Below are positions 15,313-63,763 of a stretch of 64,000 bases of DNA, one piece after another (the stretch's first letter is position 1; every line of letters begins with the position of its first letter). Below the pieces are notes generated by a model. That model was not told where the DNA came from. It was given only the letters and a program-made list of their open reading frames with translations, and made no database searches. Both the position numbers and the translations under genes were made by a program. This DNA comes from Bifidobacterium moukalabense DSM 27321 (GTDB taxonomy: Bacteria; Actinomycetota; Actinomycetes; Actinomycetales; Bifidobacteriaceae). The DNA lies in assembly GCF_000522505.1 (NCBI RefSeq), contig NZ_AZMV01000007.1:62001-126000 (forward strand), read 5' to 3'.

Positions 15313-15358
15313 CGCCCTCCGCCGGTCGCGGTGCGGACGATGCGGAGCGTGTTGCGGA

Positions 15359-30112: not shown

Positions 30113-30136
30113 TGTCCGATTCTGCCGAATCGGACA
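30113..30136. repeat. GTCCGATTC palindrome, single unit
   Basis: Perfect 10-base arms TGTCCGATTC/GAATCGGACA around TGCC, 20 bases after the HxlR stop. The following 160 bases up to the next hairpin hold no gene I can support on either strand. Confidence 0.8.
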
Positions 30137-34247: not shown

Positions 34248-36653
<2,406 letters not shown>

Positions 36654-41066: not shown

Positions 41067-41082
41067 TTCTCCGGAATCGGAC
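41063..41082. repeat. Partial GTCCGATTC palindrome overlapping a stop codon
   Basis: TGATTC-TCCG-GAATCGGACA matches the right-hand half unit (left arm CTGATTC) seen at the ends of larger clusters. Its first three bases are the FprA stop codon. Confidence 0.6.
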
Positions 41083-41118
41083 ATCTGCGGGGCGGCTTGC
41101 CCATGCCCGTAGGATTCC

Positions 41119-43636: not shown

Positions 43637-43710
43637 GCGGATGTAGTTCATCGGTAGAACGAAAGCTTCCCAAGCTTTAAAGGCGGGTTCGACTCCCGTC
43701 ATCCGCTCCA
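43637..43710 (+). tRNA. tRNA-Gly (CCC), integration site
   Basis: Acceptor GCGGATG pairs with CATCCGC, D arm GTTC/GAAC, anticodon stem AAAGC/GCTTT with loop TTCCCAA (anticodon CCC), T arm GCGGG/CCCGT, and an encoded CCA end. Its last 26 bases form the left 27-bp attachment repeat, so the integrated element leaves the tRNA intact. Confidence 0.95.
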
Positions 43711-43711
43711 C
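43685..43711 (+). repeat. attL: 27-bp direct repeat in tRNA-Gly
   Basis: Starts GGGTTCGACTCCC in the T arm and ends one base past the CCA of tRNA-Gly. Identical to 51351-51377. Confidence 0.93.
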
Positions 43712-43769
43712 TCAAAACCCTTGAAATTCCAGTCTTTTCAGCCGATTTTAGACATTCCCACAACCCTGC

Positions 43770-43852
43770 GAGGTAACTCTGAGGTAACAACTTCTGGGGA
43801 ATGTCGTTCTTGCAATGGACTGAAATGACTGGCTGTTACCTTCCGTTACCTC
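43770..43852. promoter_or_regulatory. Left-end GAGGTAAC motifs (candidate integrase arm sites)
   Basis: GAGGTAAC occurs at 43770 and 43781, 11 bases apart. The reverse orientation follows as GTTACC at 43835 and GTTACCTC at 43845, 10 bases apart. The last one overlaps the end of the Xre repressor gene. The same direct pair recurs at the right end. Confidence 0.6.
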
Positions 43853-44127
43853 GCGCGCAGATCGGGCCATGGTGTCGGCAGCAGTTCGTCGATGGACACG
43901 TCGAGTACCGTGGCCAAGGCGATGAGCGTTTTGGCCGTGGGATTCGCTGGACGGTCTTTTGATGAGCCGCCGCCCTCGAGCCGCTGGTATTGCAATCGTG
44001 ACATTCCGGCGTCGTAGGCTACGCGCTCCTGACTGTAGCCGCGTTGCGCGCGGATGCGCCGGAGGTTCATTTCGAACTCACGGGTGTACTGAGTCCAATC
44101 CATGTCTGCGTTAATGCGTTCAGCCAT
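43846..44127 (-). CDS. Xre-family repressor of the integrated element
   Basis: A small (about 93 residues) helix-turn-helix protein with RAQRGYSQERVAYDAGMSRLQYQRLE as the Cro/CI-type motif and a trailing LIALATVLDVSIDELLP. It probably represses the divergent operon through the palindromes at 44147-44176. The start is uncertain: ATG 44127, TTG 44142 and ATG 44103 all keep the domain and none has a good ribosome site. It may be read from a leaderless mRNA. Confidence 0.8.
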   Translation of the reverse strand: MAERINADMDWTQYTREFEMNLRRIRAQRGYSQERVAYDAGMSRLQYQRLEGGGSSKDRPANPTAKTLIALATVLDVSIDELLPTPWPDLRAR

Positions 44128-44146
44128 GGTTTCAGCCAACAACTGT

Positions 44147-44176
44147 GCTACATTTATGTGGCTACATATATGTAGC
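44147..44176. promoter_or_regulatory. Tandem palindromic operators
   Basis: GCTACATATATGTAGC (44161-44176) is a perfect 16-base palindrome. Immediately to its left and overlapping by two bases, 44147-44162 is a related imperfect copy, with centres 14 bases apart. They lie between the Xre repressor and the divergent gene, just upstream of a possible -10 box TAGAAT at 44191-44196. Confidence 0.7.
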
Positions 44177-44255
44177 TGTATGATTTGGGGTAGAATACGA
44201 GGGGTAGTAAAGGGGAGAGAGATGACCGAAGAGGAAAAGAAAGTTCCTGCCGCGG

Positions 44256-45215
44256 GTGAAAAAAGACAGCAGGAAGCGTACTGTCGTGATTGCCGCTGCT
44301 ATCGCCGCGATCGTCGTCCTTGGTGGTGCTGGCGGCGGCTATGCTTACGCCGCGAATAAGGCGTATGAGTCTTATGAGGCTCAGGTCGAGTCCGCGAAGA
44401 CCATCGACGCGAAACTCGTCAAGAAAATTGAAGACGCTCAGAATCTTGCCAAGGCGACGAAGGATACGGACGTGCTCGACAAGACCCTGCTGGATTCCCT
44501 GAACGCAAGTGTCAAGTCCGGCGAGGCTCAGAAGGGTAGTCCGAAAGCCGAAGATGTCAACAAGTGGGCACTTTGGGACGTGAGCAAGGCGAAGACCACG
44601 GTTGCCGATGATATCAGCGCGGCAACCAAGGCCATCAGTTCCATCGACGCCGCCATGGGCAAGGTTGAATCCTCCAAGACTGCCAAGCAGGTCAAGGACG
44701 CGAAGGACGCGCTCAACAAGACCGTCAGTGATGCGGAAACCCTGTACAAGGATTCCGAAGGCAAAGTGCAGGATGATAAGACGCGTGAAAGCCTGAAAAC
44801 AGCCATCGACACGGCAAAGAAAACCTCCGATGATAAGAAGGCGGATGTGAAAGCCCTGAACGCGCAGAAAGACGCCGTATCCAACGCCGTCAAAAACGTA
44901 AACGACTCCAAGAGCGCGAAGGAACAAGCCGACGCGGAAGCCAAGGCCAAGGCCGAAGCCGAGGAGGCCGCACGCCAAGCCGCACAACAGCAGGCGACAC
45001 AGTCCCAGACCCAAAGCTACTCGAACACGAGCAGTCATGCTAACAGTGGCACCAGCACCTATAGCGCTCCGACTCAACAGTCCCAGACACAACAGTCCAC
45101 GCCACAGCAGAGCCAGACGCAGAATAATAGCTCTTCTAGTTCTAGTGGATATGCCAATTTCTGTGGCACGGTGGATACAAGTGGAAATGAATCAACCTTA
45201 ACTCCATGTGATTAA
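44256..45215 (+). CDS. Membrane-anchored coiled-coil protein of the element, with possible frameshift
   Basis: As read, the frame begins at GTG 44256, has no ribosome site, and gives 319 residues: a basic start, a membrane helix (about 10-33), a long Lys/Ala/Asp-rich coiled coil (about 36-235), then a Gln/Ser/Thr tail ending ESTLTPCD. A much better start, ATG 44222 after AAAGGGGAGAGAG, lies in another frame and encodes MTEEEKKVPAAGE before meeting the main frame at a run of six A (44259-44264). Removing one A would fuse the two. So the intact gene probably starts at 44222 and is frameshifted, slipped, or misread at the A run. Function is unknown; surface display or mating-pair contact is possible. 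Confidence 0.65.
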   Translation: MKKDSRKRTVVIAAAIAAIVVLGGAGGGYAYAANKAYESYEAQVESAKTIDAKLVKKIEDAQNLAKATKDTDVLDKTLLDSLNASVKSGEAQKGSPKAEDVNKWALWDVSKAKTTVADDISAATKAISSIDAAMGKVESSKTAKQVKDAKDALNKTVSDAETLYKDSEGKVQDDKTRESLKTAIDTAKKTSDDKKADVKALNAQKDAVSNAVKNVNDSKSAKEQADAEAKAKAEAEEAARQAAQQQATQSQTQSYSNTSSHANSGTSTYSAPTQQSQTQQSTPQQSQTQNNSSSSSSGYANFCGTVDTSGNESTLTPCD

Positions 45216-45234
45216 CACATCATTTGCGGGGCGT

Positions 45235-45275
45235 CTCTGACGATGGAAAGCACTTCATGCTCTCCATCGTCAGAG
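45235..45275. terminator. Terminator between convergent element genes
   Basis: CTCTGACGATGGA (45235-45247) pairs exactly with 45263-45275 around a 15-base loop, between the coiled-coil gene and the convergent rep gene. Confidence 0.75.
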
Positions 45276-45317
45276 TAAGCGGCTAACACCATTTCCGGGG
45301 CTAATTTAACTCGATAA

Positions 45318-45341
45318 ATAACTAAATAGATAACTAAATAG
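45318..45341. repeat. 12-bp perfect tandem repeat near the rep 3' end
   Basis: ATAACTAAATAG occurs twice head to tail in an AT-rich patch 16 bases past the rep stop. It might be part of a replication origin or only a simple repeat. Confidence 0.5.
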
Positions 45342-45356
45342 ACTTATTCGTCCTTT

Positions 45357-46649
45357 TCAGATATGTGCGTCAGCGCGGACAGTGCGAATGATGTTCTCGG
45401 GATGATTGGCGTAATTGGTCATCCACTCGCTGGGGGAGATGTAGCCGATGACTTCGCCGACGCCTGTTCGTTTGCTGACGGTGTCGGCGTCGTTGGTCTC
45501 GAGGCCGTGGCTGTTGCGCAGGAATGCCGACCATGCGCGATCGAGCTGCGAGTCTTGCGTACGTGGCTTGTTACTGACGCGATACGGTCGCATTCCTTTC
45601 ATGACGGCTTCCAGCTCGTGAATGACCCGCCATAGTTGGTTTTTCCCGTACATGGACCGTTCGGCGATGATTTCGCCTGTGGTCTGATTGCTTACGATGA
45701 GATGGTTGGGTCTGTCCCATGTGACGATCTCGCCTTTGCGTAGCGGGAACCATTGCTTGTTGGTTGATGCGTCCGTGCATAGGGCAGTGAGAAGTTCGAA
45801 ATAGCTCCAGCTGCGTTTGGTGTGCCCGGTTTTCCGGGTTTCCATGGTCATTTCTTTGGCTACGTTCCAAGGCGCGGTTTTGTTGAGATATTGCGACAAA
45901 AGCACTTGCGAGGCATCGTCGAAATCGTCCACTGGTCTGATGTCGCTTTGCCGGATGTCGGCCTCAACGCCCTCTTTGGCGAGGGCTTTCTGCCAACGAT
46001 GATGGAATCGTGCCTGTAAATTGACCAAATCGGATGCGGTGAGCGGCCTATCGATCATGAGCAGCAGGTGCAGATGGAAATGGTAGCCATGCCGTTGACT
46101 CCACGTCACTTCGATTCGGCTGATGATTCCCGCGATTTGGAAGTTATACCGGTCGCCTCTTTTCCGGTCGCGGTACTCTCCGCCGGTGGTCAGGGCCGTG
46201 CGGGCTTTTGAAATGGCGTGGGCGAGTTTTTCGGCGCTATCGGCGGGATTATGACCCATGGTCAAGGTCATGAAGGCTATGCCTCGATTTTGGCCTTGTT
46301 CATTGTTGGAAGACAGCCAGTATTGGATACCTTGCTCCATTTGTTTTGCGCGGCGGATGGCGAGAATCTGCGAGCAGCGGGGGCATTGTCCGGATTTGCA
46401 ACGGTGCAGACCTCCGAATTGGAGTTTGCGGCTTCCGTTCTGTTGCGGGATTGCCCGCAATACGGCCATTCCACCGTATACGATGTTCCCGCTCACGAAT
46501 TTGGAACATGATCTGATGGAAGATTGTGATGACATGCGCCATGTGACTCGCTGTAATTGCCATAGCAGTTCCGGAAATGCCATGTACGGGATGTGAAAAT
46601 CCGATTTGGTGAAAGTCGGTGTCGGCGTCTTTTTTCTTGCGGATGGCAT
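45357..46649 (-). CDS. Rolling-circle replication initiator (HUH, Rep_1-like)
   Basis: A 430-residue initiator that nicks the element's origin and starts rolling-circle replication. A zinc-type cluster C84-x4-C89-x2-C92 (CKSGQCPRC) is followed by the HUH metal motif H190-F-H192-L-H194, then the nicking tyrosine Tyr254 in YLNK, the YxxK form. This order matches pC194/pSAM2-type Rep proteins. It lies at the promoter-distal end of the minus-strand operon, downstream of the translocase. The 52-base gap to the translocase gene suggests co-transcription. Confidence 0.88.
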   Translation of the reverse strand: MPSARKKTPTPTFTKSDFHIPYMAFPELLWQLQRVTWRMSSQSSIRSCSKFVSGNIVYGGMAVLRAIPQQNGSRKLQFGGLHRCKSGQCPRCSQILAIRRAKQMEQGIQYWLSSNNEQGQNRGIAFMTLTMGHNPADSAEKLAHAISKARTALTTGGEYRDRKRGDRYNFQIAGIISRIEVTWSQRHGYHFHLHLLLMIDRPLTASDLVNLQARFHHRWQKALAKEGVEADIRQSDIRPVDDFDDASQVLLSQYLNKTAPWNVAKEMTMETRKTGHTKRSWSYFELLTALCTDASTNKQWFPLRKGEIVTWDRPNHLIVSNQTTGEIIAERSMYGKNQLWRVIHELEAVMKGMRPYRVSNKPRTQDSQLDRAWSAFLRNSHGLETNDADTVSKRTGVGEVIGYISPSEWMTNYANHPENIIRTVRADAHI

Positions 46650-46701
46650 GGGGTTCCTTTCTTTCTGTCGCCTTGGTGGGTTTTGATGGATTTTGCGGGA
46701 T

Positions 46702-47538
46702 TTATGGTTGGTTTTCTTTGTCTTGCTGGTGGGTGAAAGGCTTCAGAATGCCGGACATGATATGGATTTCATCCGCTTGCATCGGTGGAACCTGAAAGCG
46801 GATTGCCTCGTGCTTGAGGTCGTCGTAATACCATCCGCGACCTGGCGTTGAATGCGAGATGAGCCATGGCGCGGCACCTCGGGAGACGGCTTCGTCTCCT
46901 AGCGCCATCTTCGCTTCATCCTTGGAATTGAGCGCTAGGGCTATGCGTTCCGGGTAGTGATCGCGGGATTTGAAAAACTCCTTGCGGGGGTCCTGCACGG
47001 CGGCGATGACCATGATTCCTGCACTGCGCCCGGTCAGCAACAGGGTATCCAGAGCTTCTTGTGCCTGAGCTTGTAGCTTCTTCTGTTCGGGGCTGGTAGC
47101 TCCATATAGCTGGAGCGCTTCGTCGATGAGCATGACGATGAGCGGGGTCTGCACGGACCATCTGATTTCCGTCTCATGCCTTGATCTGAGCCATGCGTTG
47201 CGCTGTTTTACCAGCTCGACGGTTTCATGAAGCAGGTTTACGGCTTCCGGCAGAGTGGAAGCGATCTTTGTGTAGAATCCGGCGTATGCGTTGGCACTTA
47301 CGCCATCCTTGAGGTCGATCGCCAGAAGTCGGACGCTGCCCTCGCGGAGGAATTCGTCGAGGGCCAGAAGAATATTCGCCAGCAACGTGGTCTTGCCGCT
47401 GCCGGTGGTGCCGGCAATGAGCAGATGTAGGCCGAGCGGAAGGTGGAAATCATCTTCACTTAGTTGGTTGGGAATGGCAAGAGCCGGTCGGCTGGTCGTA
47501 GCTTTCCGGCTCTTGTGTCTGATGGGGAATGGCATCAT
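46702..47538 (-). CDS. FtsK/SpoIIIE-like DNA translocase (Tra)
   Basis: A 278-residue ATPase with Walker A GTTGSGKT (43-50), Walker B LIVMLIDEA (133-141) and the later AAVQDPRKEF. It has no membrane segment of its own, unlike chromosomal FtsK, but the small membrane protein just upstream could anchor it. In actinomycete elements such a protein alone moves double-stranded plasmid DNA between hyphae or cells. The start overlaps the previous stop (ATGA). Confidence 0.87.
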   Translation of the reverse strand: MMPFPIRHKSRKATTSRPALAIPNQLSEDDFHLPLGLHLLIAGTTGSGKTTLLANILLALDEFLREGSVRLLAIDLKDGVSANAYAGFYTKIASTLPEAVNLLHETVELVKQRNAWLRSRHETEIRWSVQTPLIVMLIDEALQLYGATSPEQKKLQAQAQEALDTLLLTGRSAGIMVIAAVQDPRKEFFKSRDHYPERIALALNSKDEAKMALGDEAVSRGAAPWLISHSTPGRGWYYDDLKHEAIRFQVPPMQADEIHIMSGILKPFTHQQDKENQP

Positions 47539-47906
47539 CGGGTGAACTTCCAGCTCCAGATACGTCGGTGTAGTGTCGGTGGCTCGGCGTCATCCATCTC
47601 CAGAACGTCCATGAGCTGCCCGGCCACGTCGGTGGCATCCTCAAAATTCCTAATTGTCGGAACTGTGCGCACGGGTACGCGGACGGACATGGCTACAGTG
47701 GCGGGCATCCAGAACGGGAACGGTCCCCACGTGATCCGGATGTCGTTGATGTCGGACTCGCTGACATGGAGAATGGCAGCGACAGTCTTAACGGTATCGC
47801 GTGTTTCATGGGTTATGACGCCGATAAGGGTCGCGAGGACGGCTATGAGTAGGCCAATGGCCGGGAGTAGGATGCCCGGCCATTGCAGAATCCATGGAAG
47901 ACTCAT
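47535..47906 (-). CDS. Small membrane protein of the transfer operon
   Basis: A 123-residue protein with an N-terminal hydrophobic region (about 9-32) and a soluble C-terminus rich in Asp, Val and Arg. I recognise no family. Its stop overlaps the start of the translocase, and it begins 5 bases after the previous gene, so it belongs to the same transfer operon and may anchor the translocase. Confidence 0.7.
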   Translation of the reverse strand: MSLPWILQWPGILLPAIGLLIAVLATLIGVITHETRDTVKTVAAILHVSESDINDIRITWGPFPFWMPATVAMSVRVPVRTVPTIRNFEDATDVAGQLMDVLEMDDAEPPTLHRRIWSWKFTR

Positions 47907-47911
47907 TTTGG

Positions 47912-48313
47912 CTACTCTCCCGGTTTTGCCGGAATCGCGTTGCCGACGATGCGCATGCCGGAGGCTTGGAAAACGACGCTGGAGCCGCCTTCGCGACGGG
48001 TGTGCAGCACGGCGGCGAAATCATCGTCGAAACGAACCTGCGTACCGAGCTTGACGCGTTCCAACTCCGGACATTCAGGAATCTGGACGGTGAAGCATTC
48101 GGTGCTCACGCGGCCGAAACGCTCGTAATCGGTCAGGACTTCGACGGTGTGGAGAATCTTGCCGTCCTCGGTGCGCTGCTCCGGTGCCAGCTGGCCGGGG
48201 GCGAGTTTGGCACGCTCCTCGTCGGTGAGGTACTGGCGTACGATGTCGGTATGGCCGGTCAGAATCTGCGGCTTCGTCGACATGTCATGGAAATTGAATA
48301 TGCCGTTTACCAT
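47912..48313 (-). CDS. Conserved-looking protein of the transfer operon, unknown function
   Basis: A 133-residue soluble protein (MVNGIFNFHDMSTKPQIL...), acidic, with no motif I recognise. I chose ATG 48313 because AGAAAGGAAAA precedes it by 4 bases; the frame continues upstream to 48358. It lies 5 bases before the next gene. Confidence 0.65.
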   Translation of the reverse strand: MVNGIFNFHDMSTKPQILTGHTDIVRQYLTDEERAKLAPGQLAPEQRTEDGKILHTVEVLTDYERFGRVSTECFTVQIPECPELERVKLGTQVRFDDDFAAVLHTRREGGSSVVFQASGMRIVGNAIPAKPGE

Positions 48314-48443
48314 GGCTTTTCCTTTCTGCATGTTGCTCTCACAACAAGAGTGCGGCATACCGGAGTGGTGAAAAATGGGCGGAAAAATGCAATGCCGGAA
48401 CTGCGATGCAGTACCGGCAACGAATGTTGAAAGCAGGTGGGGT

Positions 48444-49178
48444 TTATCGTTTTTGAAAACGCCGGTCCAGTTCGTCGATGCGATAGAGGCGGTGCCGGCC
48501 TAAGGTCATGGTCGTTAGGGGTCTTCCACATGTGGGTTGTGCGTGATCGTACAGTCCGTGCTCGCTGATGCGGTAAGTGAGGGTGGCTTGGGCCTTTGGC
48601 ATCCAGCAGGTTTCCGGCATGGTCGAGCATTCCATGAACTCATCCCAAAAACGGTAGGGTATCCACGCGGCCCCAAACGTTTCGCCTTGTGTGTGGCCAG
48701 CTGGGATATCATTCAGCTCGGGGTCGGTCCACTCGAGCTCGTCCGCGATCTCATACAACTTAACGAGTTCGTCGATTGCGTCGGCTGGTAGGCCGCGGGA
48801 TTCCAGATAGTGTTTGCGATCTGCCGAGGCGTTTGCTCTGATGAAGGCGGCGTCGTGGGATGGAAGCCGTTCGGCGAGGGCCTGCACGCAACCGTTGATG
48901 TTGGAATAAATGCGTTTCTGGAGGCAGTCGAGACGGCTGTAGCGGCGGACGCTGTCTTGGGAAACGCCGAGATAGCGTGCGATGTAGGAGTATCGCAGCG
49001 GGTGGCCATGAGAGCTTCGCGTGGTGCCGCCGTCACTCTCGATGAAGTCGGCGGACTCGTACGGGTCGAGGAACGGATTGAACGGGTCCCGTGATTGCGG
49101 ATTGCCCGTGAGTCCGTCGCGCAGCGGAAGCGGAGCGACGGACTCAAAACTGGGGGTGTGCCGTAGAGGTCTGCTCAT
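48444..49178 (-). CDS. Element protein with a helix-turn-helix-like segment
   Basis: About 244 residues. YIARYLGVSQDSVRRYSRLDCL (about 64-85) looks like a helix-turn-helix; the rest shows acidic and aromatic stretches and an R-H-R-L-Y-R-I-D-E-L end. No family is recognised; a replication or transfer regulator is plausible. It overlaps the excisionase gene by 35 bases from this start (ATG 49178). An upstream ATG at 49202, 3 bases after AAGGG, is the alternative. The gap to the next gene is 130 bases. Confidence 0.6.
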   Translation of the reverse strand: MSRPLRHTPSFESVAPLPLRDGLTGNPQSRDPFNPFLDPYESADFIESDGGTTRSSHGHPLRYSYIARYLGVSQDSVRRYSRLDCLQKRIYSNINGCVQALAERLPSHDAAFIRANASADRKHYLESRGLPADAIDELVKLYEIADELEWTDPELNDIPAGHTQGETFGAAWIPYRFWDEFMECSTMPETCWMPKAQATLTYRISEHGLYDHAQPTCGRPLTTMTLGRHRLYRIDELDRRFQKR

Positions 49179-49413
49179 TGGCGTCCATCCAATCGTCCAC
49201 ATCACCCTTGCGATACAGCACGGTGCGTGCCGTCGGCTTCAGGAATTTCGGGCCTTTTCCGGTGTATCGCAATTGTGCGAGAGCTTGCTTACTGATATTG
49301 CAGTATGCCGAGGTCTCTGCGATTGACATGTGAATCTGGCTTGGGTTCGGTGAGGCGATGACTTTGCGCATGAGGTTCTCGTACAGTGCCGTGGGGTCTC
49401 CCAATTGCTTCAT
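49144..49413 (-). CDS. Excisionase-like helix-turn-helix protein
   Basis: A basic 89-residue protein with the HTH_17/MerR-type fold: SIAETSAYCNISKQALAQLRYTGKGPKFLKPTARTVLYRKGDVDDWMDA, in which the conserved wing (Y-R-K-G-D-V-D-D-W) is clear. In AICEs this is Xis, which bends DNA so the integrase can excise the element. It is first in the minus-strand operon and divergent from the second Xre gene. AAAGGATG precedes the start. Confidence 0.85.
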   Translation of the reverse strand: MKQLGDPTALYENLMRKVIASPNPSQIHMSIAETSAYCNISKQALAQLRYTGKGPKFLKPTARTVLYRKGDVDDWMDANEQTSTAHPQF

Positions 49414-49416
49414 CCT

Positions 49417-49513
49417 TTCAAATCGTAACTGTATGTTCTGATTTCAGATGATAACGGTCGGCGCAATGAATGCAAATCAAATCACAACGGCGTGTTTCGA
49501 TTCAAATGATTAT
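49417..49513. repeat. Direct TTCAAAT-type repeats between xis and the second Xre gene
   Basis: Copies of TTCA-[AG]-AT-N2-TAAC begin at 49417 and 49443, 26 bases apart, and a third partial copy begins at 49501. They fill the divergent gap and are candidate binding sites for the Xre or Xis protein. Confidence 0.45.
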
Positions 49514-49516
49514 AAT
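49511..49516 (+). promoter_or_regulatory. Consensus -10 box TATAAT, probably leaderless
   Basis: A perfect TATAAT ends 7 bases before the ATG at 49524 with no ribosome site between. Transcription would start at or next to the start codon. No consensus -35 box is seen. Confidence 0.55.
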
Positions 49517-49523
49517 TCTAACT

Positions 49524-50036
49524 ATGAGTTCCATTGATGATAAGATGATTGGCAGAAACGTAAGGAATCTCCGTGGAAACATGACCATGGAGATGTTGGC
49601 CGCGAAGATGCGTGATTTGGGCCATAAGTGGACGAAGATCACCGTTCACAACATCGAAACCGGTGATCGCCAGCTGCGTATGAAAGAGGCCGTGGACCTT
49701 GCCGAATGCGTCGGGGCCGACGCGGCTTCGGTCGTGAGTAATCTCGTGGTTTCCCAGAACGCCGTTGCGATGAACCGCGCGCTTACGGAGGCCGTGCGGG
49801 CCAGACGCACTTTCCTGCAGGGGAGCCGTATACTGCTCAATGCCAACGAGAAGTTACGCAAGGTCGGGACCGAATGCGATGCCATGGATGAGAACGAGAA
49901 GATCATCGGGCAACGGTGCGAAGATGAATTGCAGCTTGAAAAACAACTGGTCGAAATCGCCGAGAAGCTGGACGAACTGGCGAAGGCCCTCCGTATCGAT
50001 GAGGAATCGGACACTCTGGCATTCAACCCATTCTGA
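49524..50036 (+). CDS. Second Xre-type regulator of the element
   Basis: A 170-residue protein with an Xre-like N-terminal domain (RNVRNLRGNMTMEMLAAKMRDLGHKWTKITVHNIETGDRQL) and a helical C-terminus rich in Glu, Lys and Leu (about 95-160), probably for dimerisation. It lies just upstream of the integrase, 34 bases away and co-directional, and could activate it or regulate excision. The start at 49524 is chosen for its promoter position; the frame continues to 49470. Confidence 0.75.
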   Translation: MSSIDDKMIGRNVRNLRGNMTMEMLAAKMRDLGHKWTKITVHNIETGDRQLRMKEAVDLAECVGADAASVVSNLVVSQNAVAMNRALTEAVRARRTFLQGSRILLNANEKLRKVGTECDAMDENEKIIGQRCEDELQLEKQLVEIAEKLDELAKALRIDEESDTLAFNPF

Positions 50037-50070
50037 TTTTTGCCATTAACGGTTAGACGAAAGGAGATCT

Positions 50071-51234
50071 ATGGCATCGATTCACAAGAGGACATTGAAA
50101 GACGGGTCCGTGAGATACTACGTGATGTGGCGAGACCCGGCGCACAAACAGAGGAAATTCGGCAACTGGCGGCGGAAAAGCGAGGCGGCCGCCTACAAAA
50201 TCCAAGTCGAACAAGGCCTGCACACGGGAACCTACGTGGACCCCAAAGCGGGAGAGATCACGGTGGACGAACTCGCCTCGACATGGCTCACAGGTAAGGC
50301 CGGAACCGTGAAACGTAAGTATTACATGGACTTGCAGACTGCATACCGGCTCCATGTGCAACCGGCATGGGGGTTACGGCCGATTAACGGCATCCGCCAT
50401 TCCGAAGTCCAAACGTGGGTCTCGCAGATGAGCCAAGGTGATACGGCCGCCATGAATAATGCGAAGTCGGCGTCTGAGAAATGCAAGTTCAAGCCCAAAA
50501 GCGCTTCCGTCGTACAGCGCGCGTTCGGAGTCCTCAAAGGCATCCTCGAAATGGCCCGGGACGACGGCCTGATCGTCAGACTCCCCACGGAGAAGATCAT
50601 GCTTCCCCGGAAGGTTCCCAAAAAACGCACATACTTAACGGCTGAGCAGTTGGTGGCCCTTTCCAAAGTGTCCGGCCGTCACGGGGCGCTGGTCTTAACG
50701 CTCGGGTTTTGCGGCCTGCGGTGGGGAGAGGCCGCCGCACTTCGCGTCGAGGACGTTTCCGTCGACGAACGAAGACTGCGGATTCGGCGCAACTGGGTTC
50801 GCGCGGGCCGGGAAATGATCGAAACGGAGCCAAAGACATGGGAACGGCGTGATGTGCCGGTGCCGGAATACGTAATGGCCGCAATCCAAAAAGAGATACA
50901 GGGGAAAGGGCCGGACGATCTGGTCTTCACGGATGCCGGTGGAGGTCGCATCCATGAGCAATCCGCCTCCGTGCATCCGAAGGACGCGGATGCCCAGCAG
51001 TGGTTTGGCAATGAGTTGCGCGATGCTGGTGTACCGGTCCTGACGTGTCATGATCTAAGGCACACGGCGGCAAGCATCGCGGTGCATTCGGGAGCCAACG
51101 TGAAGGCTCTCCAGCGGATGCTCGGGCATAAGAGTGCGGCGATGACCCTCGACCGATACGCCGATCTCTTCGACAAAGATTTGGACACCGTTTCCGACGC
51201 TGTCGGACGGGAAATCGCCAAAGCTCTGAGGTAA
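50071..51234 (+). CDS. int: Tyrosine recombinase (integrase)
   Basis: A 387-residue phage-type integrase that joins the element to the tRNA-Gly site. An N-terminal AP2-like arm-binding domain (about 1-60: KRTLKDGSVRYYVMWRDP) and a core-binding domain precede the catalytic domain with Arg217 (GLRWGE), His327-x2-Arg330 (HDLRHTAAS), His353 (LGHKS) and Tyr363 (DRYADL). All catalytic residues are present, so it is probably active. AAGGAGATCT precedes the ATG. Its stop lies inside the right-end GAGGTAAC pair, and the right attachment repeat is 117 bases further on. Confidence 0.93.
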   Translation: MASIHKRTLKDGSVRYYVMWRDPAHKQRKFGNWRRKSEAAAYKIQVEQGLHTGTYVDPKAGEITVDELASTWLTGKAGTVKRKYYMDLQTAYRLHVQPAWGLRPINGIRHSEVQTWVSQMSQGDTAAMNNAKSASEKCKFKPKSASVVQRAFGVLKGILEMARDDGLIVRLPTEKIMLPRKVPKKRTYLTAEQLVALSKVSGRHGALVLTLGFCGLRWGEAAALRVEDVSVDERRLRIRRNWVRAGREMIETEPKTWERRDVPVPEYVMAAIQKEIQGKGPDDLVFTDAGGGRIHEQSASVHPKDADAQQWFGNELRDAGVPVLTCHDLRHTAASIAVHSGANVKALQRMLGHKSAAMTLDRYADLFDKDLDTVSDAVGREIAKALR

Positions 51235-52124: not shown

Positions 52125-52160
52125 GTCCGACGGGCTCTCGTGGGTGTAGGCCGTTTCAGG

Positions 52161-52301
52161 CCCCGGTTTGTCCGATTCTCCCGAATCAGCCACGTAGAGG
52201 CCAAAAGTATGGGCCTGTTTGTCCGATTCTGGTGAATCGGACACCAAGGGTGTGGCGAAACGTACGTGGATGGCTGATTCACCAGAATCGGACAAACCGG
52301 G
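52161..52301. repeat. GTCCGATTC palindrome cluster (three units)
   Basis: Units at 52164-52192, 52216-52243 and 52272-52300 with loops TCCC, TGGT and ACCA. The left unit has its imperfect arm (GAATCAGCCA) inward and the right unit has TGGCTGATTC inward, so the outer parts CCCCGGTTTGTCCGATTC and its complement form a large inverted repeat around the central unit. Confidence 0.88.
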
Positions 52302-52318
52302 GGAGGAAATGTGGTCCG

Positions 52319-52505: not shown

Positions 52506-53726
52506 ATGAGCTTCAGGGAGAATCTGCAGTACCTGCGCGGCACCCGCAACATGACGCAGGAGCAGCTGGCGATGCTGCTCGGCGTCTCACGGCAGGCCAT
52601 CTCGAAATGGGAGTCCGAAAAAGCATATCCGGAAATGGACAAACTCCTGATGATCTGCGATTTGTTCGACGTAACGCTCGACGATCTGGTGATGGGCGAC
52701 GTTCGCAGACCGCGTTCGGGAATGCGTGGATCGACTGCCGGCATGTCCGCGATTTCCGGAACGACCAAGACCGGCGTAGCGGTCCCGCAACCGGCCGGTT
52801 TTGCGGTATCCTCGTCGTCGCCACGGAATCAGACGGAATCATCGGCTTCGGCGGAAGACGCGCCGACCATGCTGCATGCGGATACTCCCGCCGCGACACG
52901 GCATTCCGCAGTGCCGCAGCATTCCGCAGTGCCGCAGGACATGGTCGGCTATGACAGGCATATGAAAATTCATGCATGGCTGGTTGCGCTCGGTGTCGCC
53001 GCGATCATTCTCGGCGTTGCGGCCAGTCTGCTGTTCGATTCCGAAAACTCAATCATCGGGCACAGTCCGATGAACGGATTCCTGACCGCCGCAATGGTTA
53101 TGCTCGGCGTAATCGTGGGCTGTGCGTTGCTGATTCCCGCCGGTGTCATGCATGGCGATTTCCAGCGGCGCCATCCATATATTCAGGATTTCTATACGGA
53201 TGATGACAAGTCGCGCGCAGCCATCGAAAATGGCATCGGTACGGCTGCGGGCGTGGGTCTGATCATGGTCGGCGTGGGCGTGACGGTGTACTGCAACGAA
53301 ATGCTCGGCATCAACGACGGATGGCCGATCAGCATAATGCTGGCGCTGGCGGCCGTAGCCGTGTTCTGCTTCATTTTCACCAGCATGCGGCTTAACCGCA
53401 CAAAACTCGCCAAATACAATCGCGAAAGCGAGGAGCGCAATGCGGAGGATGATTCCGAGAACTCACCGCAGTCCACGCAGTCTACGAACGCGACCGACAA
53501 GTACTACGACAAACTCGCCGGGGCGGTGTGCGGCATCATCATGCTGACCGCAACGGTGGTGGCACTGCTCATGCTGTTCGTAGGCGTCAATGTGAATGCC
53601 GCGCACGGCGGTAATCCAGGTTTCTGGGGAGCTATTTTCTGGATTCCCTGGCCGATTGGCGGCGTTTTGTGCGGCATTGCGAGCACGGTCATCCAGCTGC
53701 TGAAGATTCGCGCCGGTCGGCGGTAG
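52506..53726 (+). CDS. Xre-family regulator fused to a membrane domain
   Basis: A 406-residue protein. The N-terminal helix-turn-helix (MTQEQLAMLLGVSRQAISKWESEKAYPEMDKLLMICDLFDVTLDDLV, about 16-62) is the class often fused to membrane parts in Gram-positive bacteria. A Ser/Ala/Pro linker (about 70-150) contains two copies of HSAVPQ from an 18-bp tandem DNA repeat. Four hydrophobic segments follow (about 158-178, 195-218, 240-262 and 275-298), and another pair near the C-terminus. It is probably a membrane-bound regulator of envelope or stress genes; targets are unknown. AAAGGAGCGAAG precedes the ATG. Confidence 0.8.
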   Translation: MSFRENLQYLRGTRNMTQEQLAMLLGVSRQAISKWESEKAYPEMDKLLMICDLFDVTLDDLVMGDVRRPRSGMRGSTAGMSAISGTTKTGVAVPQPAGFAVSSSSPRNQTESSASAEDAPTMLHADTPAATRHSAVPQHSAVPQDMVGYDRHMKIHAWLVALGVAAIILGVAASLLFDSENSIIGHSPMNGFLTAAMVMLGVIVGCALLIPAGVMHGDFQRRHPYIQDFYTDDDKSRAAIENGIGTAAGVGLIMVGVGVTVYCNEMLGINDGWPISIMLALAAVAVFCFIFTSMRLNRTKLAKYNRESEERNAEDDSENSPQSTQSTNATDKYYDKLAGAVCGIIMLTATVVALLMLFVGVNVNAAHGGNPGFWGAIFWIPWPIGGVLCGIASTVIQLLKIRAGRR

Positions 53727-53812: not shown

Positions 53813-53995
53813 ATGTGTCCGATTCTGGCGAATCGGACATTCACGCCCCGTCTCATGTATCCCATGTGTCCGTTTCTCCAGAATCGGACACATATGGTGC
53901 AATTTGATGGCATTGAGTGACTGATTCTGGCGAATCGGACATCTAGGCACCTGATATTGGAACCTGGTTGGCTGATTCTCCAGAATCGGACAACC
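53813..53995. repeat. GTCCGATTC palindrome cluster (four units)
   Basis: Units at 53813-53840, 53864-53893, 53918-53942 and 53966-53995. The interval around the second and third units (CCGTCTC...TATCCCA, ATATGGTG...GGCATTGA) is clearly related to the same interval in the cluster at 54971-55157. Confidence 0.88.
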
Positions 53996-54014: not shown

Positions 54015-54963
54015 ATGGTGCGCGTGAAAACAGACGAGAGGAAGACCACGCGCAATCCGCTACTCGGACATGCGATTTCACATCGGGGCACGATCGTCGG
54101 ACTGTGCGCGATCGTGCTGTGGGGATTCATGGCCGGACTGGTGCGTCTCGTCGCCGATGCATTCGGTGCGACGCTCGGATCCGCGTTGATATACACCGTC
54201 GGCGGTGTAACGCTGATGGTCGTACGTCGGCCGGCGCCGATTCGTAAGGCACCACGCAAGTATCTGATTATCGGCGGTGTCACATTCATCGCATATGAGG
54301 CGTCGATCTCGTTGTCAATCGGACTTGCCTCGACGGCTGCGCAATCCGTGGAAGTCAGCCTCGTCAACTATCTGTGGCCTACATTGCTGGTACTCATGAC
54401 TGCCGCGGTCTCGCATAAACGTGGTGCGGTCTGGAAGGCGTTGCCTGGCGCGATCGTGGCGACGATCGGTGTGGCGATGGCCGTCGGAGGTGAAAGTCTC
54501 GACGTGCATGAGGCCATACGCAACATCGCTTCGAATCCACTGCCGTATGTTCTGGCGCTCGCGGGAGCGTTCATATGGTCGGTGTATGCAACCGTGACAC
54601 CTGCGATATCCGACGGCTATGACGGTACGACGATTTTCTTCTGCTGTGTGGCTGTGGTGCTGTGGGTGATTCATTTTGTATCCGGTCAGGGTTGGCCGAC
54701 GTCCATGCCACCGGTAAGCGGATATGTGGCGCTGGTGGCCTGTGCGCTGTCGATTGCCGGCGGATACGCCTGCTGGGGGGTATGGCATGTTGCATGGGAA
54801 CATGGAGACACTGGCCGTCAGCTCATATGCCACTCCCGTATTCTCCACCGCATCCAGCATGGTGCTGCTCGGCGTGGCTTTGGGTGCGCCGTTCTGGATC
54901 GGCGTGGTGCTGGTGGTGGCGGGCTCGCTGATTAATCTGTGGTTCGCGAGGTGCACCCGCTAG
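54015..54963 (+). pseudogene. YddG-like DMT exporter broken at a G6 run
   Basis: The frame from 54015 encodes a DMT transporter with eight or nine hydrophobic helices (for example GFMAGLVRLVADAFGA, VEVSLVNYLWPTLLVLM). At GCC TGC TGG GGG (six G, 54775-54780) the frame leaves the family and ends at 54935 in basic, non-membrane sequence. The next frame continues correctly with YGMLHGNMETLAVSSYATPVFSTASSMVLLG and one more membrane helix to a stop at 54963. Removing one G gives an intact protein of about 315 residues of the aromatic amino-acid/RhaT-type exporter kind. It may be a mutation, a phase-variable tract or a sequencing error. Confidence 0.8.
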
Positions 54964-54970
54964 CTCCCTC

Positions 54971-55157
54971 CTACGTGTCCGATTCTCCCGAATCAGACAC
55001 GTAGACCGGTCCGTACGTTGCGTGAGTGTCCGATTCTGGTGAATCAGTCACATGCATTCCGTCTCCTATATCCCAGTTGTCCGATTCTCCCGAATCAGAC
55101 ATATACGGTGTGATATGGCGGCATTGAATGACTGATTCACCAGAATCGGACAAACTG
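54971..55157. repeat. GTCCGATTC palindrome cluster (four units)
   Basis: Units at 54971-55004 (15-base arms, one mismatch), 55027-55050, 55074-55102 and 55129-55157. The first three have GAATCAG as the right arm and the last has CTGATTC as the left arm. The next 160 bases up to the start at 55323 show nothing I can support. Confidence 0.88.
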
Positions 55158-55322
55158 GGGGACGGAGGAAAAGGACTCCCGCCGTTTCGGACGAAGCGGA
55201 TGCCCCGGACCGGGCCACCCGACCGCCTCGCGACACGCCCGAAGCTGTGGATAACTCCCGTCCTCCGACCACAACCCCTGATTTTGCGGCGCACCAGCCT
55301 AAAAATCCCCTATCTTGTGCGC

Positions 55323-56357
55323 ATGAACATGCACAAGCATCCCCTTGCAAGAGTGACGAAAGCTCAGCGACGCCTGGACGCGATGCTTCATCAAGCCCAT
55401 GCGCGGCGTCGTCTTGCGGTACCCGACCAGCCCAGGGACCGCCGCGCCTTCCAGCGCCGTATGCGCACCGGCATGATCATCATGCCGAAGAAAGGCTGCT
55501 ATATCAGCGCGCAGCAATGGAATGCGCTTTCTTATGCCAATCGCATCATATGGACGCTCCGAACGGTCTGCCACCAACATCCGGACTGGGTGCTGTGCGG
55601 GCCATCCGCCGCTGGTGCGTATGGCTACTCGACCACTTTGCAACTGCAGCGGTATGTGCACATTGCAGTAACGGAACGTTCCAAGGCGGGCCGTCACGGC
55701 TTCGTAATCGCACATTTTTACAAGGATCCTCCGCCGACGAAAGTCGTGGATGGCATGCGGGTCACTGGGGAAATCCAGACCATGGCGGACTGTGCGCGGA
55801 TGCTGGATTTCGAGCATGCGATGATCGTATGCTGTACTGGCTTGCGTAAGGGCAATCTCACGAAAGAGAAACTGCGGGAGTTCGTCGACAACAAGAGAAA
55901 AATCGGTGGCATCATCCGTGCACGTTATGTTGCGGAGCGTGTGGAGCCGGCGTGCGAGAATGGCGGCGAGGTGGCCGCGTTCGCTGCGATGCTGGAATTG
56001 GGGTTCGCGCAGCCGAAGGTGCAGGTTACTTACGTGAGTCCGCTGGACGAGCGTGATATCAGACCTGATTTTTCATGGAAACGTGATGATGGCAGCATTG
56101 TGGTCGGTGAGCTGGACGGTCGGCAGAAGTACGTGGATCCGTCCATGACGGTCGACGGCGACACGATTGGTGTGATTCTACGCGAGAAGGACCGTGAAAG
56201 CGAACTGAATATGCTGAAGATTGACGTCGTGAGATTCCAGATGGAACATGTCCGGGCCCGGGAACCGCTACGACAGCGGCTGGATGCGGCTCGGGTGCCG
56301 CGTAATCCGCTCGCCCGTGTCTCGCCATTTGCGGGATTCCGCAGCGCCGCCTACTAG
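55323..56357 (+). CDS. AbiEi-like / DUF559-type nuclease-fold protein, unknown function
   Basis: A 344-residue cytoplasmic protein. The first half (about 55-220) has the plan of AbiEi-like antitoxin/DUF proteins (GCYISAQQWNALSYANRI, DWVLCGPSAAGAYGY, VTGEIQTMADCARML). The second half has PDFSWKRDDGSIVVGELDGRQKY, the D...ExD/K arrangement of PD-(D/E)xK nuclease folds. A partner toxin gene is not adjacent, so an active toxin-antitoxin system is not shown. The start at 55323 has no ribosome site, but TATCTT lies 10 bases upstream, so it may be leaderless; the frame is open to 55128 through the repeat cluster. Confidence 0.55.
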   Translation: MNMHKHPLARVTKAQRRLDAMLHQAHARRRLAVPDQPRDRRAFQRRMRTGMIIMPKKGCYISAQQWNALSYANRIIWTLRTVCHQHPDWVLCGPSAAGAYGYSTTLQLQRYVHIAVTERSKAGRHGFVIAHFYKDPPPTKVVDGMRVTGEIQTMADCARMLDFEHAMIVCCTGLRKGNLTKEKLREFVDNKRKIGGIIRARYVAERVEPACENGGEVAAFAAMLELGFAQPKVQVTYVSPLDERDIRPDFSWKRDDGSIVVGELDGRQKYVDPSMTVDGDTIGVILREKDRESELNMLKIDVVRFQMEHVRAREPLRQRLDAARVPRNPLARVSPFAGFRSAAY

Positions 56358-56519: not shown

Positions 56520-56652
56520 CATGTCCGATTCTGGTGAATCAGCCACAACGGAAGGGTAATTGCCATGTTGTGTGTCCGATTCACCAGAATCGGACACACA
56601 ACATGGGATCAGGGGTGTGCGGATGGCTGATTCACCAGAATCGGACACATGG
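56520..56652. repeat. GTCCGATTC palindrome cluster with a 19-base-arm unit
   Basis: Three units at 56520-56546, 56564-56605 and 56623-56652. The middle one has perfect 19-base arms around ACCA, the longest palindrome of the family here. The cluster lies between two convergent genes, 22 bases past the aldolase stop on its strand. The first 160 bases of this gap show nothing else. Confidence 0.88.
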
Positions 56653-59160: not shown

Positions 59161-59290
59161 TTTGTCCGATTCTGGTGAATCAGACAGACGGAGCGCCTCG
59201 GCGTATGCCCGAATGACCGATTCTGGAGAATCGGACAAATAAGGGGTGAAAGGTGGGCGTGCATGGCTGATTCTCCAGAATCGGACGAAC
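59161..59290. repeat. GTCCGATTC palindrome cluster (three units)
   Basis: Units at 59161-59186, 59212-59240 and 59262-59290 with loops TGGT, TGGA and TCCA. The first has an inward GAATCAGACA arm and the last an inward GGCTGATTC arm. It lies between the deacetylase and purA. Confidence 0.88.
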
Positions 59291-60734: not shown

Positions 60735-60916
60735 TGTTTGTCCGAATCTCCCGAATCAGACAACCAACGGGTAACCTGACGCTCCTATTTGTCCGATTCT
60801 GGTGAATCGGACATTCGAGGGCTGGTTTGGATACGGTGAGTGTCCGATTCTGGAGATTCGGACACGTGCGGACCGATGGTGAGGCCGTGGATGACTGATT
60901 CACCAGAATCGGACAT
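60735..60916. repeat. GTCCGATTC palindrome cluster (four units)
   Basis: Units at 60735-60764, 60787-60813, 60839-60865 and 60891-60916. The first has the arm changed to GTCCGAATC, and the third has GAGATTC in the right arm; both keep most pairing. The first unit follows the purA terminator by ten bases. Confidence 0.85.
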
Positions 60917-60960: not shown

Positions 60961-62532
60961 ATGAGTTCGATTCCGACCATCGACAGGCTGATTCCACGAT
61001 TCGACCATCTGAAGTGGAAGATGGCCGCGGCCGGTGTCGCTGTCGGCTTGCTTTCCGGTCTGCTGGTGGTCGTCTACCGGCTTGGCATCGAATATGGCAC
61101 GGATTGCGCACGTTGGATGTACGCGCAGATTCGGAACCAGCCATGGCTGCTTGCGCCGTGGGCGGCTGCGGCCGTCATCAGCGCCCTGCTCATCGTCTGG
61201 ATGGTCGGCAAGGAGCCGATGGCCGGCGGCAGTGGCATTCCTCAAACCAATGGCGTGGTGATCAACGGTCTGAGGATGCGCTGGCAAAGCATTCTGCCGG
61301 TCCGTTTCGTCGGCGGCCTGCTGGGCTCGCTGTTCGGCCTGTCGCTTGGCCGCGAGGGGCCGTCCATCCAAATAGGCGCATCCGGGGCGCAGTTTCTGTC
61401 GCATCGTCTGCGTGGCCGACGCCGTGAGGACGCGCAGGAGCATTATCTGGTGTCCGCCGGTGCCGCCGCTGGCCTTTCCGCTGCGTTCAGCGCCCCGCTT
61501 TCCGGCATGATGTTCGCGCTCGAAGGCATTCATCGCAGTTTTTCGCCCGCTATTCTGATGGGTGCGACGGCTGCCTCACTGACCGCCGATTTCGTTTCGA
61601 AGTATTGTTTCGGATTGCGTCCCGTGCTGGATTTCGGCGTGATCGAGCAACTGCCTCTTACCGAATACGTCTGGCTGATTCCGCTTGGGATCGTCGCAGG
61701 TTTGGTCGGTACGCTGATGAACCGTTCCCTGCTCGGACTGCAGACGTTATATGGCAGGCTTCCGGCGTGGAGTCGCCCGATGATCGCCATCGCGATCGCT
61801 CTGCCGGTCGGCGTCTGGTTGCCGGATGTGCTCGGAGGCGGGTCGAACCTCATCGCATTGTCCGAAAAGGCCGAAACAGGCATCGGTATGCTGTGCCTAT
61901 TGTTCGTGGCGAAGATGATCTTCACCGGTACCAGTTTTGGTTCCGGCACGCCAGGCGGTATTTTCATGCCGATTTTGGCGGTCGGTTCGTTGGCTGGCGG
62001 CATCTGCGGTGAGGCCGCACGTCAGTTCGTCGGATTGCAGGCGCAGTCCGTGGCCGTATTTGCGGTCTGTGTGATGACGGGCACGTTGGCGGCCTCCGTG
62101 AAGACGCCGATTACTTCGATCTTGTTGGCCGTTGAGATGTCGGGTACGTTGACGCACATGCTGCCGATTGCGGCGGTGGCCTTCATCGCGCTTCTTGTCT
62201 CCGACTTGCTGCGCACCAAGCCGATCTACGGTGAGTTGTTGGCGCGGTATATGAAGGCGCAAGGCATGGAGTCGAATATACCGGGCCATGTTGGCAGCGG
62301 GGTGATGGAACTTCCGTTGGAGATGGGTGCCGAAGCGGATGGCAAGCGGGTACGTGACGTGGCATGGCCGTCAGGTTGCCTGATTATCGGACTGCGTCGC
62401 GGCGAACGCGAGACCGTGCCGCGCGGGGATACCACATTGCGTGCCGGTGACTATCTGGTGGTGTTGTTCAGCGGCGAGGAGGAGCGTGAGGTGCGTCTCG
62501 CCATGCATCGGCTGTGTGATGTCGGCCTGTGA
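60961..62532 (+). CDS. ClC-family chloride/proton antiporter with RCK C domain
   Basis: A 523-residue membrane protein with about eleven hydrophobic segments and the ClC selectivity motifs GSGIPQ, GREGPS and GSGTPGGIF. The C-terminal ~80 residues (GVMELPLEMGAEADGKRV...) form a TrkA-C/RCK-C-like domain, which may sense ligands. In bacteria such proteins exchange chloride or fluoride for protons; the neighbouring FluC pair makes fluoride one possibility, but the sequence lacks a motif I can use to decide. No good ribosome site is seen at the ATG. Confidence 0.88.
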   Translation: MSSIPTIDRLIPRFDHLKWKMAAAGVAVGLLSGLLVVVYRLGIEYGTDCARWMYAQIRNQPWLLAPWAAAAVISALLIVWMVGKEPMAGGSGIPQTNGVVINGLRMRWQSILPVRFVGGLLGSLFGLSLGREGPSIQIGASGAQFLSHRLRGRRREDAQEHYLVSAGAAAGLSAAFSAPLSGMMFALEGIHRSFSPAILMGATAASLTADFVSKYCFGLRPVLDFGVIEQLPLTEYVWLIPLGIVAGLVGTLMNRSLLGLQTLYGRLPAWSRPMIAIAIALPVGVWLPDVLGGGSNLIALSEKAETGIGMLCLLFVAKMIFTGTSFGSGTPGGIFMPILAVGSLAGGICGEAARQFVGLQAQSVAVFAVCVMTGTLAASVKTPITSILLAVEMSGTLTHMLPIAAVAFIALLVSDLLRTKPIYGELLARYMKAQGMESNIPGHVGSGVMELPLEMGAEADGKRVRDVAWPSGCLIIGLRRGERETVPRGDTTLRAGDYLVVLFSGEEEREVRLAMHRLCDVGL

Positions 62533-62542: not shown

Positions 62543-62570
62543 CATGTCTGATTCTGGAGATTCGGACATG
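62543..62570. repeat. GTCCGATTC-type palindrome, single variant unit
   Basis: CATGTCTGATTC-TGGA-GATTCGGACATG: the loop side is changed, but CATGTC/GACATG outer bases stay paired. It lies 10 bases after the ClC stop. The remaining gap shows nothing else. Confidence 0.7.
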
Positions 62571-62722
62571 TGGTCGGATTGCGACATGGCAGCGTGTACA
62601 CTCGTGCAATGTCAGAAAGACGGCATCTGCGGCCGGCGCATCGTTGTATGGCCCAGTCGCGAGAACGGTGTGGTTCGTGAGATCGTCTGAAAGCTTTGTG
62701 GACAATAGGAAATGGGAGCGGT

Positions 62723-63763
62723 ATGGAATCGCAGACACGGGGCCCGTTGCATGGCGGACAAGCGGATGGCGAGTCCGAACCGCCCAAGCCGGTGAATGCA
62801 GGGGAGGATCCGAATCCGGCGACGCAGTCGATCAGTGTGACCGAGGCGGCCAATGCGGACGCCCGGCCGCAAGGTGCGGCTGCGGCTCCCAATCCTCCCC
62901 GGATTCCTCTCGCCCCGTTGAAGCGCGTGCAGGCGCGGTTCAATCCTCTGGCCGACGGGCTGATGTATCTGGTGGTGTTCGTCGGCGGTTTCGTCGGTGT
63001 GGGGCTTCGTCGCGTGCTTGATGTGATGATGCCGGCAGCCGAAGGGCAGCCGTTCGTGCCGGGTACATTCGTGTCGAACATGCTGGCCTGCCTTTTGTTC
63101 GCCATGCTGGTCGAATATATGACGGTCGCCTCATGGCTGCCCCGTCGCATACGCCAGATCACCAGCCGTGGCCTCGGTCTGGGATTGCTCGGGGGACTTT
63201 CCACCATGTCCGGTCTCATGCTGGAAGCCATGGAGGGAATGAGAACGCATCATGTGGCGGGTGCGTTGCTGTATCTTGCGATCAGTTTCATCGGAGGCGT
63301 GATTGCATCCGCGATGAGTGTCGGGCTTATGCAGTTGCTGCTTGCGCGGCGCACGCGCAGAACCGTACGTGAGGCATTGCAGGTGTCCGATTCTCCAGAA
63401 TCGGACACTCAGGAGGCCGGCAGACGCTCACGGTTGTCCGATTCTGGCGAATCGGACAAATTGGCGGCGCAGGACGCCCCGCCCGAGGGGTATATGCAGG
63501 TGAAAGTGGCCGATGCGGCGCATTCCGCCGCGCAGGCCGCGTTGGAAGCGGCTGCGGCGGCGCAGGCGGCGGCGACCACCGCGGCACAGGCCGCACAGTC
63601 CGAATCCTTGGAATCGCAAGAATCCCCGGTGCTGGCGGAGCTTGCCGGCGTGACGCGGCGGGACAATCCTGCGCCTTCCGAGGATTTGCCGAGTTTCGAG
63701 CCCAAGCCGGTCACTGCGGAGATTCCGTTGGTCGCCGATCCGACCACGGGGGAGGTACGTTGA
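62723..63763 (+). CDS. CrcB/FluC-like protein with a repeat-containing C-terminal tail
   Basis: A 346-residue protein. The CrcB-like core lies at about 70-215 (LMYLVVFVGGFVGVGLRRVLD, VSNMLACLLFAML, GLLGGLSTMSG), so the characteristic Asn and the glycine-rich third helix are recognisable, though GGLSTMSG departs from the usual GGxTTFST. The long soluble tail contains SDSPESD and SDSGESD from two in-frame palindromes, then Ala/Gln-rich and acidic stretches. The N-terminal ~65 residues are also an extension. FluC channels export fluoride as dimers. The start at 62723 follows GGGAGCGGT; the frame is open to TTG 62696. Its stop overlaps the next start (TGATG). Confidence 0.8.
   Translation: MESQTRGPLHGGQADGESEPPKPVNAGEDPNPATQSISVTEAANADARPQGAAAAPNPPRIPLAPLKRVQARFNPLADGLMYLVVFVGGFVGVGLRRVLDVMMPAAEGQPFVPGTFVSNMLACLLFAMLVEYMTVASWLPRRIRQITSRGLGLGLLGGLSTMSGLMLEAMEGMRTHHVAGALLYLAISFIGGVIASAMSVGLMQLLLARRTRRTVREALQVSDSPESDTQEAGRRSRLSDSGESDKLAAQDAPPEGYMQVKVADAAHSAAQAALEAAAAAQAAATTAAQAAQSESLESQESPVLAELAGVTRRDNPAPSEDLPSFEPKPVTAEIPLVADPTTGEVR
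63383..63459. repeat. Two GTCCGATTC palindromes inside the FluC-like gene
   Basis: Perfect units at 63383-63408 (loop TCCA) and 63434-63459 (loop TGGC), both read in the TCC-GAT-TC frame as SDSPESD and SDSGESD. Confidence 0.9.

Follow-up and report, generated by a model that had tools for sequence, protein, structure and literature searches.

The matS/MatP and Noc sites are palindromes that bind proteins and are confined to a single region of the chromosome; sopC and similar plasmid centromeres consist of ~43-bp tandem repeats, each with a palindrome. Other described repeat systems resemble the bifidobacterial arrays analyzed here in different respects. BOX elements of Streptococcus pneumoniae likewise have end modules around tandem internal modules whose number varies, and a predicted stem-loop, and their unit number differs between genomes as it does in the bifidobacterial arrays, which hold 1 to 6 units and differ by multiples of 51 bp; in BOX, however, the ends boxA and boxC are distinct modules of ~50 nt, whereas the ends and middle of a bifidobacterial array are the same palindrome (PMC3049150). 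Rickettsia palindromic elements (RPEs) likewise lie in frame in unrelated genes as well as in intergenic DNA, but they are ~150 bp long and fall into ten families, whereas the bifidobacterial block measures 51 bp, contains a 24-bp palindrome and occurs in clusters near the origin (PMC10969869). The REP/BIME/REPIN elements with RAYT are also short palindromes, often in opposed pairs (PMC3733652, PMC3116915). The subject of this analysis is a 64,000-nucleotide window (C7:62001-126000) of the Bifidobacterium moukalabense DSM 27321 genome (2.5 Mb, 12 contigs), in which a 24-bp palindromic unit, TGTCCGATTC-NNNN-GAATCGGACA, recurs with a start-to-start step of 51 bp. Our literature search found printed mention of the unit in one place, Table 1 of PMC4521832, where 'Undetermined' CRISPRs are entered for B. 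dentium (24 bp, 8 repeats) and B. ruminantium (25 bp, 16 repeats), both marked 'N' for associated cas genes; the repeats entered in that table are this palindromic unit.

The window contains 34 units (≤3 mismatches) compared to none in 100 shuffles, and these are grouped into 13 clusters. The three-unit cluster at 52161-52302 (units 52169-52192, 52220-52243 and 52271-52294) has edges that form a perfect 18-bp inverted repeat, 52161-52178 with 52285-52302. A preliminary description of the window had assigned to five clusters of three or four units an ordered architecture in which each end unit has a perfect outer arm and a modified inner arm. This order fits in full at 52169 in the cluster just described, at 54976-55152, a four-unit cluster with identical unit order in the nearest relative (G028), and at 56522-56647, a three-unit cluster that is inverted relative to its orthologous cluster and has end units that are exact reverse complements. 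The other two named clusters depart from it by one outer-arm mismatch each, on the right in the three-unit cluster at 59163-59287, where one step is 50 bp, and on the left in the four-unit cluster at 60739-60915. Beyond the named five, the rule is not fully followed in the three-unit cluster at 28745-28870, where the outer arm of the last unit is modified, in the three-unit cluster at 35809-35934, or in the four-unit cluster at 53816-53992, where the left arms of the two right-hand units are modified, and the two-unit cluster at 26829-26903 (51-bp step) has an altered right outer arm. Single units lie at 30113-30136 and at 62545-62568 downstream of the gene at 60961-62532, a single degenerate unit lies at a gene end (41060-41083), and a two-unit cluster is found at 63384-63458. 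The relatedness of spacers noted earlier between the 53816 and 54976 clusters was confirmed (19/27 and 16/27). The ORF at 55128-56357 has a possible ATG start inside the last unit of the 54976 cluster, and an in-frame ATG at 55323 is an equally likely start. Rfam at the gathering threshold returned two tRNAs and nothing else. The interval 43637-51234, perhaps a tRNA-borne island, runs from a tRNA gene at 43637 to a tyrosine integrase at 50071-51234, and the three ORFs scanned in between have no Pfam match.

In eight of nine unit-bearing regions this palindrome ranks first among the inverted-repeat families; among five unit-free regions of 80 kb each, taken at 40-120 kb, four have no inverted-repeat family of at least three copies and one has an unrelated family (G074:C1:40001-120000; arm GCTCCCCT, 5-base loop, six copies in 80 kb). 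Nine genome regions together hold 323 units in 159 clusters of 1 to 6 units, and 142 of 157 neighbor steps are exactly 51 bp when only units with ≤3 mismatches, called independently of spacing, are counted. The half-site consensus carries a weak outward extension, GGACA-[AC]AC[AG]GG, with the flank part derived from 194 outer flanks. The 27-bp spacers, whose orientation is mixed within arrays, carry a common directional consensus (837 bits versus 682 ± 8 for 20 shuffled-middle controls, using 113 of 149 spacers after removal of near-duplicates), which rules out mutually unrelated spacers. Because the spacers are related, the clusters read as a 51-bp tandem repeat that has decayed except in its palindromes, and the arrays probably descend from one such repeat. 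Degenerate distant units with G+C-rich cores also occur in 51-bp pairs, at C1:486995/487046, C1:495917/495968 and C6:23933/23984.

These properties bear on the printed label. Repeats of 24 bp with 27-bp spacers, together with the 'Undetermined' CRISPR entries in Table 1 of PMC4521832, speak for Cas-less CRISPR arrays in the two species listed there, but we regard this explanation as very improbable. The spacers share one directional consensus, each of eight well-stocked regions carries 9 to 30 clusters of 1 to 6 units, several of them located within genes, many loci and spacers are common to several species, where CRISPR spacers would be unrelated and acquired, and the two clusters searched had no phage match. 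The label 'undetermined CRISPR' misfits these arrays whichever reading holds.

The unit (≤1 mismatch) was detected in 16 of 112 Bifidobacterium genomes, and its absence from the other 96, which include most related species, indicates that the genus does not require it. In named genomes, exact matches fell in B. ruminantium, B. merycicum, B. catenulatum subsp. kashiwanohense, B. erythrocebi, B. pongonis and Bifidobacterium sp. N4G05, in a scan that is incomplete in that some unit-bearing species are absent from its matches; two isolated exact matches in other taxa, one in a Bradyrhizobiaceae MAG and one in a Hyphomicrobiaceae MAG, are probably chance. A phage or plasmid origin was rejected because viral contigs contain no exact unit, plasmids contain no match for 54960-55170, and phages contain none for the two clusters searched. 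Six complete genomes together carry 158 units, and 146 of these fall within 300 kb of dnaA, counted on either side with chromosomes taken as circular and dnaA near base 500 (with ≤1 mismatch, 8/8 in G001, 20/22 in G006, 3/3 in G015, 22/24 in G019 and 26/28 in G020; with ≤2 mismatches, 67/73 in the 2.6-Mb genome of the nearest relative, where 66 of the 67 stand on the right-hand side of dnaA). The G006 block lies on the opposite side of dnaA in reversed order. In B. moukalabense, 51 of 57 distinct units occupy C7:40-240 kb, with dnaA at C7:30356, and the other six lie on C1 (three), C5, C6 and at C7:410 kb. Within each genome, most units share one side of the origin, a one-sidedness that fits spread within a gene block as well as it fits an origin domain.

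Confinement of sites to one region is a matS-like property, seen here in the 146 of 158 units near dnaA. The bifidobacterial sites differ from matS, Noc and sopC in standing in 51-bp phased arrays, mostly on one origin side, and in having other sequences. They are also distinct from parS, whose consensus we take to be TGTTTCACGTGAAACA and which differs from the unit; the presumed canonical parS sites lie apart from the units, at C7:22105 and 27698. Membership in the REP/RAYT system was rejected on three grounds. The GTAG or CGTC tag of those elements (PMC3733652) is absent, and 194 outer flanks show the consensus [AC]AC[AG]GG. The Y1 transposase domain (PF01797) has no match in B. moukalabense and is found in seven of 112 genus genomes, four of them unit-bearing. 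REP elements are extragenic and dispersed, whereas 10 of 23 placed B. moukalabense clusters lie in genes and 66 of 73 units of the nearest relative fall in the first 300 kb.

The gene context of the clusters is unrelated from locus to locus. Two of the 25 B. moukalabense clusters lie outside the gene map, and the 23 that were placed comprise ten in accepted genes, nine that are intergenic, in convergent, tandem and divergent gaps, and four in short doubtful ORFs. After the four clusters in these last, likely spurious ORFs were set aside (30113, 53816, 56522 and 62545, three of them in another frame), all ten clusters in accepted genes read as xSDS[G/P]ESDx in one frame. Since 24, 27 and 51 are multiples of three, a change in unit number keeps the reading frame. 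Host genes include an FtsX-like permease, a P-type ATPase (34248-36653, PF00122), which contains the 35809-35934 cluster in frame, and a CrcB-family protein (62696-63763, PF02537), in which the 63384-63458 cluster is read in frame as the peptide VSDSPESD...LSDSGESD.

Order within clusters is observed well beyond the window, in a weaker form than the rule originally put forward. Among 93 multi-unit clusters in nine regions, 36 of 186 outer arms are imperfect versus 167 of 328 inner arms (permutation p 0.0001), and outer arms are cleaner than inner arms in all nine regions, with single-region p values from 0.0001 to 0.60 that exceed 0.1 in three (adol, kash and brev). Clusters of at least three units in six regions have 56 end units, 37 of which combine a perfect outer arm with a modified inner arm and one of which shows the reverse. 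Arms of single-unit clusters are imperfect in 57 of 132 cases, so outermost position alone is insufficient for a clean arm. The further proposal that end units are inverted copies of each other applies to B. moukalabense and its nearest relative, whose end-unit inner arms show 22 mismatches to complementarity versus 38.7 by permutation (0/5000), or 18 versus 25.5 in clusters of at least three units (127/5000). It fails in catenulatum-type genomes (49 versus 47.8) and angulatum-type genomes (21 versus 17.6), where these arms have no complementarity above chance; eight genomes pooled give 103 versus 115.3 (60/5000). Universal inverted end units were therefore rejected, complementarity being clearly above chance in the one pair of genomes only. 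A bounding inverted repeat is likewise present as the 18 bp at 52161-52302, but outer flanks beyond the arms have no complementarity above chance (460 versus 466.4), and the CCCCGG extension seen at 52161 therefore does not hold generally.

End-to-end complementarity in these two genomes is also what would be expected if transcribed clusters formed long hairpins affecting termination, mRNA stability or translation. The RNA fold suggested by the preliminary description agrees with this for the one cluster folded, in which 52155-52306 reaches −82.1 kcal/mol, well below the energies of shuffled sequences (z −7.8), and the two end units pair together; yet a perfect palindrome folds well by construction. 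Further evidence against an RNA-level role comes from the catenulatum-type and angulatum-type genomes and from the placement of clusters in coding genes and in gaps of all three orientations. Changes within units tell against it as well: 327 arm changes are one-sided and nine are identical in both arms, versus 11.5 expected under independence. Arm changes are thus not compensatory, which indicates that sequence is kept and not pairing within the unit, and overall we judge an RNA-level function improbable. A hairpin formed by each unit was rejected for the same lack of compensation and because flank complementarity is 150 versus 142.8 ± 9.4, with 488 of 2000 permutations as high.

We compared rates of change between B. 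moukalabense and its nearest relative at five intergenic clusters. Arms differ at 12 of 340 positions (outer 3/100, inner 9/240), spacers at 90 of 270 and flanks at 105 of 436, the flanks with 24 gap openings, or 1.49 per 27 bp, under lenient gap costs and using nine of ten flanks after one short flank was dropped. Spacer length differs in two of 12 spacers, a milder measure that records net length only. With 9 of 240 positions different, inner arms and their variants are conserved between orthologous loci, and cores are as free to change as spacers (29/84 versus 92/297 in eight pairs from the two genomes). The contrast is weak in catenulatum-type genomes (arms 29/820, spacers 41/324, flanks 127/3468), a comparison in which many flanks are coding and several clusters enter more than one pair. 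As arms there change about as much as mostly coding flanks, the rate argument rests mainly on one pair of genomes and five intergenic loci. The slow change of arms suggests protein-binding sites rather than idle repeats, and taken with the spacing it points to selection on protein half-sites and on their phasing.

Between species the arrays change in unit number, orientation and location. Many loci and their spacers are common to several species, and orthologous clusters often differ by multiples of 51 bp: by 51 bp at 121335, 123018 and 35809 in comparison with the nearest relative and at G041 81485, 82592 and 90178 in comparison with G020, by 102 bp at 67840, and by 153 bp at G060 34843 versus G020. 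At G001 127580 one 51-bp block is cleanly absent. Other orthologous clusters are equal or differ by other amounts (69 at 77980, 155 at 176577). Two clusters are observed to be inverted. Aligned to the nearest relative in flipped orientation, the 56522 cluster differs at 0 of 12 core and 21 of 54 spacer positions (4/12 and 40/54 unflipped), and the spacer at 76825 differs at 8 of 27 (17/27 unflipped). The idea of one composite element holds insofar as clusters are ordered and whole clusters can act as units, but they have no fixed length; unit numbers of 1 to 6 and species differences of 51, 102 and 153 bp identify the building block as the 51-bp repeat. A 5.9-kb segment between two similar unit clusters in the nearest relative (12340-18163 of piece L099 of G028:C1) is missing in B. 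moukalabense, where a single unit at window −19951 (C7:42049) joins its flanks; deletions or insertions may thus take place at units.

Such behavior raises the possibility of a small mobile palindromic repeat of the MITE, BOX or RPE kind with no host role, copied by a trans-acting transposase or by template switching and found near the origin because spread began from one founder there. Copies are indeed found nearby: 76825 and 77980, 1.2 kb apart, are exact reverse-complement copies over 75 bp (spacer 27/27), the nearest relative has a 24/27 spacer copy 5.9 kb away, and five of eight within-genome spacer pairs at ≥19/27 identity, some of which share clusters, lie within 6.5 kb, versus 243 of 1736 other pairs. 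In-frame presence in genes as in Rickettsia, variable unit number as in BOX, and the one-sided distribution agree with mobility, and as in MITEs terminal inverted repeats are present, 150 of 186 outer arms being perfect. One-sidedness and near copies together indicate that spread within the block also shaped the pattern. In G060, the clusters at 34843, 87148, 105598, 108157 and 111015 share spacers (17-21/27) at distances of 50-76 kb, which shows that copying is not restricted to near neighbors. Dead copies, however, should lose their arms as they lose their spacers, in contrast to the 12/340 and 90/270 differences above, and Y1 transposases are missing from 12 of 16 unit-bearing genomes, B. 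moukalabense included. BOX makes target duplications (PMC3049150), whereas none is seen at 67840, the sole clean empty site, where one species has no unit, another a one-unit 51-bp block and B. moukalabense three units. We consider a purely mobile repeat rather unlikely.

We favor, with a probability of about one half, the reading that the clusters are arrays of double-stranded DNA sites for a putative dimeric protein, held in a 51-bp register. Each 10-bp arm would be a half-site and the palindrome one site for a dimer, with the fixed register allowing neighboring dimers to touch. Spacers of the ancestral 51-bp tandem repeat would be free in substitution and much less so in length, and the outward-facing half-sites of an array would be held nearest consensus. 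Arrays would shrink, and perhaps grow, by one 51-bp unit at a time or several, invert through exchange between inverted arms, and occasionally be copied to another locus in the same region. Protein binding, its oligomerization and a chromosomal role are the parts of this model that we infer; the sequence, spacing and distribution of the units, the differences in rate, the absence of compensation between arms, the in-frame placement, the 51-bp changes and the inversions are observed directly. The cognate protein was not found among the ParB homologs and Pfam-scanned ORFs examined. A ParB paralog was rejected as the binder because match counts do not track the units (0 to 3 in unit-bearing genomes and 0 to 4 in others, a count in which the B. 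moukalabense chromosomal ParB appears as two matches), and the 26 ORFs scanned with Pfam include one HTH protein adjoining the arrays, at 52506-53726, which was detected in the regions of only three of eight relatives.

Because nearly all units are found no more than 300 kb from dnaA, both within and between unrelated genes, organizing or marking a region is a likelier role for such sites than regulation of a gene set. We tentatively extend the protein-site reading to a proposal that is itself doubtful, in which a group of Bifidobacterium species would possess, besides parS, another site system marking the origin-proximal arm, and a putative lineage-specific oligomerizing protein organizes or segregates this region. 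If a protein binds these sites, they would constitute an origin-proximal chromosomal site system outside ParB-parS in human gut bacteria. If no protein binds, the arrays would provide an unusual test of how a palindromic repeat can retain arms and 51-bp register as the spacers decay, invert at its locus and come to lie in frame within genes.
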